Of a DNA stretch of 64,000 nt, positions 4,195 through 60,836 are shown one piece after another. Each line of letters begins with the position of its first letter. Within the stretch, counting starts at the first letter, position 1. This DNA is from a virus, in the IMG/VR virus record IMGVR_UViG_3300028569_000021, positions 1 to 64,000 of that record; one strand, given 5' to 3'. The translations under genes were made by a program, and so were the position numbers. Below the pieces are notes generated by a model. That model had not been told where the DNA came from, did not search any database, and saw nothing but the letters and a program-made list of their open reading frames with translations.

Positions 4195-4683
4195 TTATAA
4201 ATTTATAGTATATATAGTTCCGACTCTTGGAACTGTTTGGTTGCTAGATATACTTGGTGTAGGAGTTACACTTGGAGTCTTTGTAGGTGTTGGAGTGGGG
4301 GTCGTAGTCGGGGTAGTTGTTGGAGTAGGGGTCAGAGAAGGAGTATTTGATACAGCAATGGAAGGGGTGTTTGATACCGTCAACGTTGGAGTTATTGTTA
4401 TTGAAGGGGTATTTGTAATACTTGATTGAGACTTTGTAGGAGTTGTGGTAGGAGTTTTTGTGGGTGTTCTTCTAGGCAATAATGATGATTTTGAAGGAGT
4501 TCTTGTAGGGGTTCTTGTAGGGGTTTTTGTAGGGGGTTTTGTGGGTAATAAACTAACTATTGGTAACAATGAGGATTTCGAAGGAGTCTTTGAAGGAGTT
4601 CTTGTAGGAGTCTTAGTTGGGGTCCTTGTAGGCGTTTTTTTAGGCGTCTTGGTAGGAGTCATTGTAGGAGTCGGCCTTCTCAT
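4195..4683 (-). CDS. Pro-Thr-rich low-complexity repeat protein
   Basis: 162 aa composed almost entirely of TPT, TPS and KTP/RTP repeats, with two copies of a KSSLLP segment. There is no globular domain. The N-terminal part is Lys/Arg-rich and the C-terminal part is neutral. Such tracts are usually extended linkers or stalks in phage fibre proteins; a similar tract links two domains in the fibre gene at 59640-60836. The stop is one base before the subtilase ATG, so the two are probably co-transcribed. It could be a stalk between the baseplate and the protease. The reading frame is supported by the start, its late-like octamer and absence of stops, but function is unknown. Confidence 0.6.
   Translation of the reverse strand: MRRPTPTMTPTKTPKKTPTRTPTKTPTRTPSKTPSKSSLLPIVSLLPTKPPTKTPTRTPTRTPSKSSLLPRRTPTKTPTTTPTKSQSSITNTPSITITPTLTVSNTPSIAVSNTPSLTPTPTTTPTTTPTPTPTKTPSVTPTPSISSNQTVPRVGTIYTINL
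4200..4207 (-). promoter_or_regulatory. Late-like octamer TATAAATT before the subtilase
   Basis: TATAAATT ends 6 nt before the subtilase ATG and overlaps the last codons of the Pro-Thr gene. Confidence 0.55.
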
Positions 4684-40561: not shown

Positions 40562-41224
40562 TTAGTTAGTCTCTTCAATTTCAGGGAACAGATATTTATT
40601 TAAGAATAATTTTGCATTGTCATCACCTATTTCATTTGCTAATGACTTAAATGTCTTATCATTTTTCTTTTGACCTACGCAATATCTATTTTGTATATTA
40701 ATGTTCTTTTGATATATTTTAGTATAGTAAGTAATATAATAAAGATAATTTTTTATAATAATATAAATTTGATTAAAAATATAATCTAATTCTTCCGCTT
40801 CTGGTGTAATACAAATAAAATCATCACTAAAAAAATTAGCCCATTCTGGTAAATTTCTGGTAGGTGACTTAATTTTACTTTTAAGATTTCTTAAGCTGGT
40901 TATATCAAATAAAGACAGTGATGTAGGTGTGAGATCAAAAAATATTCCTGTAATTTTATCCCCTAGAGCTATAACATCGAATCCTAAAATAGGTAAATCA
41001 ACATGTGAATTGGGAAAAATATTTGAATGCAACACACACATTTTATTAGTTTTATAATATTCAAGATGCACGTGCCTAGTAACATCAGTATTAAAAAAAT
41101 AATTTAACCATTCGTGTTCTTCTTTCTGAAAAGGTAGCTTCTTATTATCGAAGCTACCCATATAGTCAGAAAAAATATCAGCTAAATCGTTAAAATAGCC
41201 TTTAAGTAGATTGTGGGATTCCAT
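40562..41224 (-). CDS. Ferredoxin-dependent bilin reductase (PcyA/PebS/PcyX family)
   Basis: 220 aa from the ATG at 41224; I prefer it to the upstream Met (41260) because that extension is hydrophobic and overlaps the heme oxygenase end by 59 bases. The family core is VLHSNIFP ... HVDLPILGFDVIALGDKITGIFFDLTP. H66 and D83 match PcyA catalytic H88 and D105 with the same 17-residue spacing. These enzymes reduce biliverdin IX-alpha with electrons from ferredoxin to a phycobilin. It overlaps the heme oxygenase gene by 23 bases. Which bilin is made is not decided by the sequence; a PcyX-like phycoerythrobilin-forming enzyme from marine phages is plausible. Confidence 0.8.
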   Translation of the reverse strand: MESHNLLKGYFNDLADIFSDYMGSFDNKKLPFQKEEHEWLNYFFNTDVTRHVHLEYYKTNKMCVLHSNIFPNSHVDLPILGFDVIALGDKITGIFFDLTPTSLSLFDITSLRNLKSKIKSPTRNLPEWANFFSDDFICITPEAEELDYIFNQIYIIIKNYLYYITYYTKIYQKNINIQNRYCVGQKKNDKTFKSLANEIGDDNAKLFLNKYLFPEIEETN

Positions 41225-41798
41225 TATAAATTTGATCAAATAGAGTAACGTGAAACTCAAAAAAATTATTTACTTCTAATACAAAATCATCTTCACTAAC
41301 ATTGTCATTTGTAATATCAACAATTGCTCTTACATCACTAATAACATTTTGTGCATTATTATAAATGTACATTTGATTAAAAGGTGCAAGTTTTGTAGAT
41401 AGTAACCTACCGCCGTAAAGATCAGCTAACCACCTAACGTATAGGTCCGCTTTAAGCAAAGCAACTGGCTTAGACCAAGCTTTTGATACCCATTCCTCTG
41501 CAATTGCTAAAGGTTTTAACAAGTAAACATTGTCTTCATTAATATGCTTTCGAGTAAGTGTGATAATATCTTTAGAGATTGTCTGAGTCCTCCTTAAGTC
41601 AGAGTTTCTAAAGATATTTGCTGACAATAGTCTTTCCTCCACAGCACTATATGTAGGTCTCACATTAACAAGAAATTGTAAAAGTTGTCTTTCATCGTAT
41701 TTGCCACTAATAAAACTGGCCATCAGTGGATGATTTTCTGCTCTTTTATGTGATTCTGTTGTTTCTTCTTTAAGTCGTTGTTGCAATGTATTACTCAT
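41202..41798 (-). CDS. Heme oxygenase
   Basis: 198 aa. The proximal ligand is H17 in LKEETTESHKRAEN, and the distal helix has LADLYGGRLLS, like the GDLSGG motif of HO-1. The fold and length agree with bacterial/cyanophage heme oxygenases. It opens heme to biliverdin IX-alpha, CO and Fe(II), using seven electrons from ferredoxin or another reductant. Its product is the substrate of the bilin reductase encoded next, which overlaps its 3' end. No ferredoxin gene was seen in the window, so host electrons would be used. Confidence 0.9.
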   Translation of the reverse strand: MSNTLQQRLKEETTESHKRAENHPLMASFISGKYDERQLLQFLVNVRPTYSAVEERLLSANIFRNSDLRRTQTISKDIITLTRKHINEDNVYLLKPLAIAEEWVSKAWSKPVALLKADLYVRWLADLYGGRLLSTKLAPFNQMYIYNNAQNVISDVRAIVDITNDNVSEDDFVLEVNNFFEFHVTLFDQIYNGIPQST

Positions 41799-55833: not shown

Positions 55834-56481
55834 TTAAGTATTTTTCTTACTAAATTCTACAAATTTATAGAATTCCGCTCTAGAATTATCATTATTATCA
55901 AGAAATGCACCTGACATACGCGCAGTTCTCATAGTAGAGTCATGCTTAATGCCCCTGTTAGAACAACAGGAATGATTTGCTTCAATCAGTACTGCAACTC
56001 CATTATTCCTTTCACATACTTTATTGACATACTCATGGATTTGTGCTGTAAGGTTTTCTTGTACTTGCGGACGACGAGCAAACCAATCTACAATGCGATT
56101 TAGCTTAGACAATCCAATAACTTTACCCTTAGCGGAAGGTATGTATGCAACATGTGCAACGCCTGTAAAGGAAGCATGATGATGTGAGCATAAAGAAACT
56201 ACTTTAATGTTATTCTGACAAACTATACCATCATATTTGTCGACATTATCAAATGCTGTAACTTTTGGTGGCTCAGTATAACATCCCATGGCTAGATCAG
56301 TTACGAAGGCCTTTGCCACTCTCAAAGGGGTATTACTGCTATTAGGATCGTTTCTCCAGTCAAAACCAAGTGCATCAAGATATGCTTCATAAGCAATTGC
56401 GGCCCTTTCAATAAGATCAGTCGTCTCTTCTGGTGTATGGGGGTTGTTGTGATTGGCGTATGAAAGTTTCTTTTTAATCAT
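55834..56481 (-). CDS. folE: GTP cyclohydrolase I (FolE)
   Basis: 215 aa. Zinc/catalytic motifs: [39 protein letters not shown], and the C-terminal NHSCCSNRG, all as in bacterial FolE. It converts GTP to dihydroneopterin triphosphate, the first step to folate and to 7-deazaguanines (queuosine/preQ0 pathway). With QueC at 41803 it suggests a deazaguanine pathway in this phage, although QueD and QueE were not found here. It has its own host-type promoter TTGAAA-N16-TAAAAT-N6. Confidence 0.94.
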
Positions 56482-59022: not shown

Positions 59023-59055
59023 TTTTATAAATAAAAAAAGATCTTTGATAATTTG

Positions 59056-59495
59056 GGGGTGTACTGGTTTTCGATTTATAATTGAAACCTAAGAGTGCAT
59101 GCAGAGGTTAATCGATGGCCTCTATAAAAATCGATTAAAAACCTAAATGCAGAGGATAATACTTCTGATCTTTTAGCTGAAGCTGAATACATCATCAATC
59201 ACGCTGACGAGTTTCTCGTTGGTTGTGAAGATGAGTACGAACTCGCAGCCTAAAAGCCTAATAGAGGATCCTCTAAATCTATTTTGAAACGCAGAGGTTT
59301 TGATGAACTGTTAGAGATCATAGAAAAACTAATACAGAGGGAACATACGACCTGATCACGTATGTAGGCAGACTTTAAAAGATGGTCGATGAGCCAAGAC
59401 AGCCTTTAGTCAAAAAATGTCAAATTCATCTAAGCATGTAGTACCTTTTAGAAGATATTGTAAAGACAGGGGTTCGAATCCCCTCACCTCCACCA
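59056..59495 (+). ncRNA. ssrA: tmRNA (ssrA) with 34-residue tag
   Basis: The 5' end GGGGGTG pairs with CACCTCC before the encoded ACCA (59486-59495), including the G3-U70 alanine identity pair. The T arm is GGGGTTCGAATCCCC. The resume codon is GCA at 59149, preceded by TAAAT as expected for a tmRNA. The tag frame runs from 59149 to the TAA at 59251-59253, beginning AEDNTSDLLAEAE and ending CEDEYELAA: 34 residues, far longer than the 8-15 typical of bacterial tags. It is a one-piece tmRNA with CCA encoded. It would rescue ribosomes stalled on broken mRNAs and tag the products for proteolysis, perhaps with altered specificity. Confidence 0.92.
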
Positions 59496-59499
59496 ATTT

Positions 59500-59589
59500 G
59501 GAACGATGGCTGAGCGGCCGAAGGCAGAGCTTTGCTAAAGCTCCGAGGACTAAAAACCTCCGAAGGTTCAAATCCTTCTCGTTCCGCCA
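59500..59589 (+). tRNA. tRNA-Ser (anticodon GCU)
   Basis: A 90-nt class II tRNA. Acceptor GGAACGA pairs with TCGTTCC, followed by G and encoded CCA (59587-59589). The anticodon loop TTGCTAA (stem GAGCT/AGCTC) gives GCT, which reads AGC/AGU. A long variable arm (GAGG ... CCTC) marks serine. The T arm is GAAGGTTCAAATCCTTC. It lies 4 nt after the tmRNA, so both are probably processed from one transcript. AGU is a common Ser codon in this AT-rich genome, so it may support late gene translation. Confidence 0.95.
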
Positions 59590-59639: not shown

Positions 59640-60836
59640 ATGGCCTTACAGACTATTGAATATTTAAAATCAAAATTCGAAACAGGAGATTTACCTGATC
59701 AAAACGATTTTCAGGATTTAATAGATAGCTGTTATAATTTAACTCAGTCGGACTTATCTCTTTTAATTATAACTATTGTTGAAAATATTACAATAAATTC
59801 AAGAAATGTTTTTTACGACAATACAGCAGGTATTGATAATATTATAGTAGGTCAGAACGTACAAGATGCAATAACTCAGTTATCCTTTATGGTTAAGGAA
59901 TTAAACAACGTTGTTTTTCCTTCTCCTACGCCAACCCCTACCCCTAGTATTACACCAACTTTAACACCTTCTGTAACCCCTTCAGAGACCCCTTCAGAGA
60001 CCCCTTCTGTGACTCCTACAGTAACTCCGACACCGACACCTACAGAAACACCTAGCTTAACTCCCTCTAAAACACCATCTGTAACTCCTTCAGAAACGCC
60101 TAGCTTAACTCCCTCTAAAACACCATCTGTAACTCCCTCCAAAACGCCATCTGTAACTCCTAGCTTAACTCCCACAATTACACCATCAAATCCAACTCCT
60201 TTTTCTTTAGTATGGGATAATTTCTCTACACTACCTACTTTCTCTTATACTGATACCGGTAGTATTGAAGTTATTAATAACTCTACACAAATATTGTTGA
60301 GACCTAAAAGCGCGCTATTGACATTTGAAAGTAGTTATAATACTGCAAATGGAGATGTTAACTTTTCGAGCTGCTCTAATCTAACATTTTTAAGACTTAA
60401 AGATAACGGTATTTCTAGTTTAAATGTTTACAATTGTACATCTTTAGATATCTTAGACTGTTCTACTAATAATCTCTTATCTCTTGATATTATATCATGC
60501 TCCGTTTTAACAGATCTTGATGCAAGTGGAAATCAATTAAATACAGTAACGCTTAGTGGGCTTACTCTTTTAAATACAGTTAATTTAGAAGGAAATAACA
60601 TAAGTTCTTTAAATGTTACTAATGATGTAAACCTAAGTTCAATTAATATAGGCTATTGTAACTTTAATATTTCCGATTTAGATACTTTATTTAATAATTT
60701 ACAGGATCGTACAAGCTCTACATCTGGTAATATTGATATATATTCCAATCCCGGTACTAGTGGTGCTAATTCTTTAATAGCAGAAGGAAAAAACTGGGTA
60801 GTTAACAAGATTGGCCCATTAAATGCTCAAGTCTGA
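59640..60836 (+). CDS. Tail fibre-like protein with Pro-Thr stalk and LRR-like head
   Basis: 398 aa. Residues 1-95 begin [30 protein letters not shown], the N-terminal pattern of many phage fibre attachment proteins. Residues about 98-183 are a Pro-Thr-Ser repeat stalk with a 48-nt direct repeat in the DNA. Residues about 190-398 have leucine-rich-repeat spacing ([37 protein letters not shown] ...). The LRR end is a likely receptor-binding or carbohydrate-binding head (inference). It lies directly before the lysis cassette. The stalk is like that of the 162-aa gene at 4195. Confidence 0.7.
60051..60146 (+). repeat. 48-nt direct repeat in the Pro-Thr stalk
   Basis: Two adjacent near-identical 48-nt (16-codon) units start at 60051 and 60099 (both CCTAGCTTAACTCCCTC...). 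They encode the [16 protein letters not shown]-type block. Copy number is likely to vary by slippage or recombination. Confidence 0.7.

Follow-up and report, generated by a model that had tools for sequence, protein, structure and literature searches.

The window analysed here (64,000 nucleotides, bases 1-64000 of a 93,777-base IMG/VR record) encodes a phage tmRNA whose tag of 34 residues belongs to a conserved family of phage tags. In our reading, to which we assign a probability of roughly 0.55, this is a working trans-translation RNA whose tag has two parts, a C-terminal degron and a conserved, probably helical docking segment. Since dozens of related phage contigs share the tag, which was not found in the bacterial genomes searched, a role beyond that of an ordinary destruction mark is suggested. 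The tag peptide is kept across divergent phages under a selection that is stronger towards its N-terminus than at the degron end, which indicates that the peptide itself matters, and its conserved core provides a concrete motif for the question why phages carry tmRNAs. Phage tmRNAs are already known, having been reported in 402 of 18,146 genomes (PMC9004378) and listed before (PMC4131195), and so are long tags as such. Published tag lengths range from 8 to 35 residues (PMC8012679) with 10 as the commonest length (PMC11915505), so that the description of the tag as exceptionally long in an earlier note on this DNA was fair. What appears to be new is the conserved EYIFNNADEF tag family, as no description of a conserved family of long phage tags was found in the open-licence papers.

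The window contains a single Rfam tmRNA match (RF00023, positions 59055-59495 of the plus strand, 120.1 bits, E 2.2e-46), which covers the model over its whole length (1-374) without truncation and, like the match of every relative tested, lies above the gathering score of 47 by a wide margin. ARAGORN detected the same gene, but reported a tag of 24 residues. The gene comprises 441 nt and starts at 59055, one base before the start given in the earlier note (59056); the tag frame placed there at 59149-59253 translates as claimed. The 5' acceptor strand GGGGGUG (59055-59061), which includes the G of the G3-U70 pair, is matched by the 3' acceptor strand CACCUCC (59485-59491), and the latter is followed by the discriminator A and an encoded CCA that ends at 59495. 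Relatives were collected with a scan of the neighbouring lysozyme-like gene (two with a tmRNA), a pattern for tag codons 3-13 (30 stretches) and a pattern for the RNA block behind the tag (10 stretches). The fold was then examined across 15 relatives at 41 named pairs, drawn from the acceptor, the T arm, the long helix and pseudoknot PK1. 97.6% of the cells were paired and 19 pairs had changed on both sides, compared to 4.3 in shuffles and 3-8 with slid partners. The G3-U70 pair was invariant (15/15), acceptor pairs 5 and 6 showed compensatory changes, and the helices of PK1 (59103-59136, with a GAGG(A) stem and an AAUCGA stem) were 99-100% paired with changes on both sides in 7 of 11 pairs. 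The tRNA-like fold and PK1 are kept in the relatives through compensatory changes, and the gene is a real one-piece phage tmRNA (ssrA). Both features to which the earlier note had pointed as signs of function, G3-U70 and the encoded CCA, are present in the window; the CCA is not encoded in many of the relatives. The downstream pseudoknots are variable. A block of 47 nt in that region (59283-59330) is near-identical in many relatives and replaced by other sequence in L179, L186, L190 and L192, which suggests modular exchange.

The surroundings of the gene showed some recurrent features. Just upstream of it lies GATCTTTGA (59040-59048), which is kept as [GT][AT]TCTTTGA in 17 relatives and which we take to resemble the boxA of rRNA leaders. 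In seven relatives (L165, L167, L173, L182, L187, L189 and L192) the tmRNA is preceded by the element TTCGTCCAGCGxGTTAAAAACxCGGTAGCCAATGAA with a boxA-like end, TGTTCTTTGA; this element gave no Rfam match when three of its members were scanned, and it folded no better than shuffles. A T4 late promoter at 59026-59033 (TATAAATA) was considered, but is not claimed because the window, with 15 occurrences against an expectation of 21, shows no enrichment of the motif. On its 3' side the tmRNA adjoins a tRNA-Ser(GCU) gene (59500-59589, plus strand; ARAGORN and Rfam), a neighbour that is also found in L004. The record contains T4-like genes, as judged by eye from ORF translations, and its terminase also matches T4-like isolates at less than 60% identity. 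Searches of the INPHARED phages with the whole window and with the tmRNA returned no near relative.

The frame that runs from the resume codon GCA (Ala, 59149-59151) to UAA (59251-59253) translates to the 34-residue peptide AEDNTSDLLAEAEYIINHADEFLVGCEDEYELAA, which contains 11 Asp or Glu residues and no Lys or Arg, and whose C-terminus, YELAA, is hydrophobic. An open frame of 34 codons has a chance of about 7% and is by itself weak evidence. However, GCA was found at the same position in 16/16 aligned tmRNAs, within the context ACUAA(A)(U/C)|GCA and followed by tags of 33-35 residues, and in the Rfam alignment the consensus UAAuUGCa falls on the same bases as the resume site of the window. On these comparative data the tag starts at GCA 59149. 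The claim of the earlier note that this is a phage tmRNA with an acidic tag of 34 residues is thereby borne out, also with regard to the resume codon and the tRNA-like fold on which it was to be checked, as the covariance analysis left the GCA in place and the fold covaries.

We define the EYIFNNADEF phage-tag family as tmRNA tags of 33-35 residues with the core LLA[EQ]AEYIFNNADEF. The window tag belongs to it with the variant EYIINHADEF, which differs at two core positions; the codons of its core, LLAEAEYIINHADEFL (59170-59217), correspond to the family form LLA[EQ]AEYIFNNADEF[LVI] and to a predicted helix-turn-helix. A back-translated AEYIFNNADE pattern hit 70 viral stretches, all 70 of which were tmRNA tag frames and none an ordinary protein, on contigs of up to 225 kb. 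Rfam scans of 13 divergent loci with long tags, among which were three members of the second family described below, put all 13 above the cut-off. Altogether 40 distinct family tags were obtained, and their length was 33-35 residues throughout, despite indels on either side of the core. Their N-termini are variable (AEDNTSDLLAEA, ADDDMSDLLAEA, AEDTEVDALLAQA, ADEDYGDLLAQA, AKDNTDAILAEA), and the core EYIFNNADE[FVI] shows scarcely any variation, although this conservation is partly a matter of construction because most of the 40 tags were selected by their core. LAA, encoded in the window at 59242-59250 as a degron-like end, terminates 29/40 tags, and the other 11 end in LFA, LVA, MVA, MFV, LEA, FAA, YAA, LLT or LTA; in the large phages that have diverged most, the end drifts from LAA. 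The single Cys of the window tag, which had been singled out as a feature, is incidental, as Cys occurs in just 8/40 family tags. The pattern DNTSDLLAEA was absent from 84,980 genomes of bacterial and archaeal species, and AEYIFNNADE was absent from 395 Bacteroidota genomes; since the patterns allow no amino-acid mismatch, diverged host tags could escape them. No tag-like sequence was seen among the ordinary proteins of the phages or among the PDB sequences, and a short-peptide tblastn search with the tags, which was probably insensitive, gave no match.

Selection on the peptide was measured as dN/dS on sets of tags that had not been picked by the codons under measurement, because the tag pattern itself fixes amino acids. 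For codons 1-12 this gave a pS of 0.34, a pN of 0.008 and a dN/dS of 0.018 (9 distinct DNAs, found via the lysozyme or the RNA block), and for codons 14-23 a dN/dS of 0.058 (24 distinct DNAs, found by codons 3-13). When the set was instead chosen through the core motif, the N-terminal codons had a higher dN/dS of 0.21, which tells against our main reading. The N-terminal two thirds of the peptide are under strong selection at the protein level, which exceeds that on the C-terminal tail.

The Shine-Dalgarno usage of the window offers an indication of the host. Only 2% of 59 window ORFs are preceded by a Shine-Dalgarno-like motif, compared to a background of 7%, and the leaders are A-rich. The same measure gave 6% for a Polaribacter phage and 27% for Bacteroides crAss001, and among T4-like phages 38% for a Rhizobium phage and 26% for Synechococcus S-CAM1. 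Such motifs are also wanting in other phages with this tag core, whereas they precede 86% of the genes in a 211-kb phage whose long tag is unrelated. Bacteroidota naturally lack Shine-Dalgarno sequences (PMC6847099). The avoidance of these motifs by the window genes suggests, indirectly, that the hosts are Bacteroidota. The tags of Bacteroidota themselves, sampled from 148 genomes, have 9-10 residues, with one possible tag of 15. Two apparent Bacteroidota tags of 29 and 33 residues (L388 and L391) turned out on inspection to be ARAGORN errors; L388 contains a GENNYALAA frame and L391, on the reverse strand, a GDNFGYRMAV-like frame as judged by eye. One Bacteroidota genome carries a second, degenerate tmRNA-like copy with a GENNYALAA frame (G120:C1:772761-773172, 49 bits).

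That the RNA would be alanylated, bind SmpB, resume translation at GCA and release the product at UAA is taken from tmRNA biology (PMC8012679). By this analogy, the phage tmRNA would be charged with alanine and would act with host SmpB on host ribosomes; host SmpB is assumed because no SmpB gene was found in 14 phage records, although these are fragments and a gene for SmpB or an adaptor may lie outside them. Nascent chains on stalled ribosomes would then receive Ala and the 34 residues. The C-terminal end, usually LAA, would be recognised as a degron by an AAA+ protease of the host, most likely ClpXP. This type of recognition would be available if the hosts are indeed Bacteroidota, because the tags of that phylum end in LAA or MAA, but it cannot be assumed for all family tags because 11/40 end otherwise. 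The roughly 23 N-terminal residues (AED..LLAEAEYIFNNADEFL) would form a short, acidic and probably helical segment that is selected since a protein binds to it. The docking partner would, as a best guess, be an adaptor or the protease itself, and docking would raise or redirect the turnover of tagged proteins during infection. In an AF2 model, for which the alignment comprised 6 rows of close relatives, helices span residues 5-17 and 19-30, with a pLDDT of about 90 for residues 1-20 and a mean of 79; it should be noted that acidic peptides rich in Ala and Leu are readily predicted to be helical. ClpP-family proteases are encoded by five large phages with the tag core (G165, G166, G170, G174 and G176). 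A phage ClpP was rejected as the general tag partner, as it was present in only 5 of the 28 records tested. A more specific proposal, which we advance tentatively and with less confidence than the two-part tag, is that the helical core represents a phage-specific docking domain that captures the output of trans-translation for a particular partner, be it a phage adaptor, an altered protease or another protein. If so, the phage would have a degradation or delivery channel of its own, separate from the short tag of the host.

Among the possible roles of the long tag, docking to an adaptor or protease would in our assessment rank first, a switch of protease, as with Lon in Mollicutes, second and a non-proteolytic role third. 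The earlier note had proposed that the additional residues may change degradation or direct products to another protease; this is plausible in view of the strong selection on the N-terminal two thirds, but no partner or protease was identified. In its strict form, with the whole peptide of 34 residues acting as a degron that switches specificity to another protease such as Lon, the proposal seems unlikely. A precedent exists in the tag of Mesoplasma florum, which is longer than that of E. coli and is read by Lon (PMC9382460), and some family tags lack LAA (LFA, MFV, LLT). However, LAA would be needless for Lon and is nevertheless kept in 29/40 tags, and Bacteroidota, if they are the hosts, use ordinary LAA or MAA tags of 9-10 residues. 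Somewhat more doubtful still is a function of the core outside proteolysis, in which tagged products would go to a phage partner or be sequestered or stabilised, with LAA in a secondary role. The stronger constraint on the core and N-terminal part than on the C-terminal tail would fit such a function, as would the departure from LAA among the large phages that have diverged most and the absence of a cellular homologue from the genomes, ordinary phage proteins and PDB sequences searched. Yet LAA persists in most members, no partner was found, and the products of trans-translation are diverse truncated chains for which a shared role besides disposal is less natural.

It is quite improbable that the tag region is conserved for RNA structure, such as the positioning of pseudoknots, rather than for the peptide. 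The mRNA-like regions of tmRNA are indeed structured, and the fixed length of 33-35 codons could reflect the distance from PK1 to the helix that follows, but synonymous sites are free (pS 0.34-0.57) while non-synonymous sites are held (pN 0.00-0.04), and the indels come in codon multiples.

The chance that translation resumes further downstream, at the 24-residue tag EAEYIINHADEFLVGCEDEYELAA that ARAGORN called in the window and likewise in all ARAGORN-called family relatives, with the upstream open frame being incidental, is close to nil, as the comparative data already contradict it: the pre-resume context and the spacing from PK1 agree with GCA 59149, and the first 12 codons combine synonymous changes with a dN/dS of 0.018. 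Indeed, the ten codons omitted by ARAGORN vary almost wholly at wobble positions, and selection on codons 1-12 implies that they are translated. The discrepancy can be attributed to the program, as shown by lengthening the tags of three bacterial tmRNAs in silico on templates of roughly 350 nt (a template of 397 nt had given a confounded result, with gene length as the probable cause). In all three templates every length up to 33 residues was called, and the correct tag was never called at 34 residues or more, which accounts for the wrong call in the window; in family members with 33 residues, ARAGORN also set the start wrongly. The standard caller therefore has a blind spot for tags of at least 34 residues, and in routine annotation such tags are cut or missed.

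The tmRNA described here shares with E. coli SsrA and RF00023 the tRNA-like domain, G3-U70, the long helix, PK1 and an Ala resume codon, as well as the stop codon, the encoded CCA and the mostly LAA end. It differs from bacterial tmRNA in being phage-encoded and in its tag of 34 residues, where about 10 are usual, with a conserved acidic extension of 23 residues. The E. coli tag joins an SspB site to a ClpX-binding LAA (PMC9382460), and the combination of AANDENY with LAA follows the same two-part logic of N-terminal docking and C-terminal degron. This likeness is a functional analogy only, as the SspB portion has 7 residues versus about 23 here and the two are not alike in sequence. Mollicutes such as Mesoplasma florum likewise have a long tag and possibly a change of protease (PMC9382460), but their tags end in NYAFA, which is lacking in the window tag, whereas the present family mostly ends in LAA and has another conserved motif. 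The ssrA of Bacteroidota, the probable host phylum, has the LAA or MAA end in common with the family (GENNYALAA and similar); its tag is limited to 9-10 residues, often with Gly or Asp first, and its 5' end is of the GGTTTTGACAG type as opposed to TTTCGAT/C here. The tmRNAs of Bxz1 and its relatives, Bacillus phage G and Melnitz resemble the present one in often lying beside tRNA genes and in apparently using host SmpB (PMC4131195, PMC9004378). The tag of phage G has 13 residues compared to 34 here, and the tmRNA of the Methylophilales phage Melnitz consists of two pieces. In the open-licence papers found, none of these phage tmRNAs is described with the present core motif. A long acidic tag is known for mycobacteriophage Bxz1.

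Several other phage tags came to light. A second tmRNA family (L089, L104, L159 and L447-L450) has tags of 33-35 residues of the form AK.I.NAVKSVKSF.TN.AE...E.ELCL.AA, such as AKAITNAVKSVKSFVTNMAESLFACEDELCLMAA, which ARAGORN misses. The C-terminal half of these tags is like that of the window tag; they begin with AKAI.NAVKSVKSF, and an acidic N-terminus is therefore not universal in long phage tags. Further phage contigs have tags of 21-31 residues. Those of 21-22 residues, of the type GNTFAKLQAVGLLATEEVTVA, are widespread on contigs of up to about 200 kb and end in VA, not LAA (L052, L055, L068, L088, L091, L100, L112, L128, L158 and others). Tags of 25-31 residues occur in the unrelated contigs L083, L098, L099, L072 and L148, the last two being shortened by ARAGORN; some are acidic, with EADA[FL]L-like segments.

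Lastly, the window contains, as judged by eye, a heme oxygenase-like gene (41202-41798) and a GTP cyclohydrolase I-like gene (55834-56481). Two proteins with long Thr/Pro/Ser repeats, encoded at 59640-60836 and 4195-4683, are probably virion surface proteins or fibre linkers.
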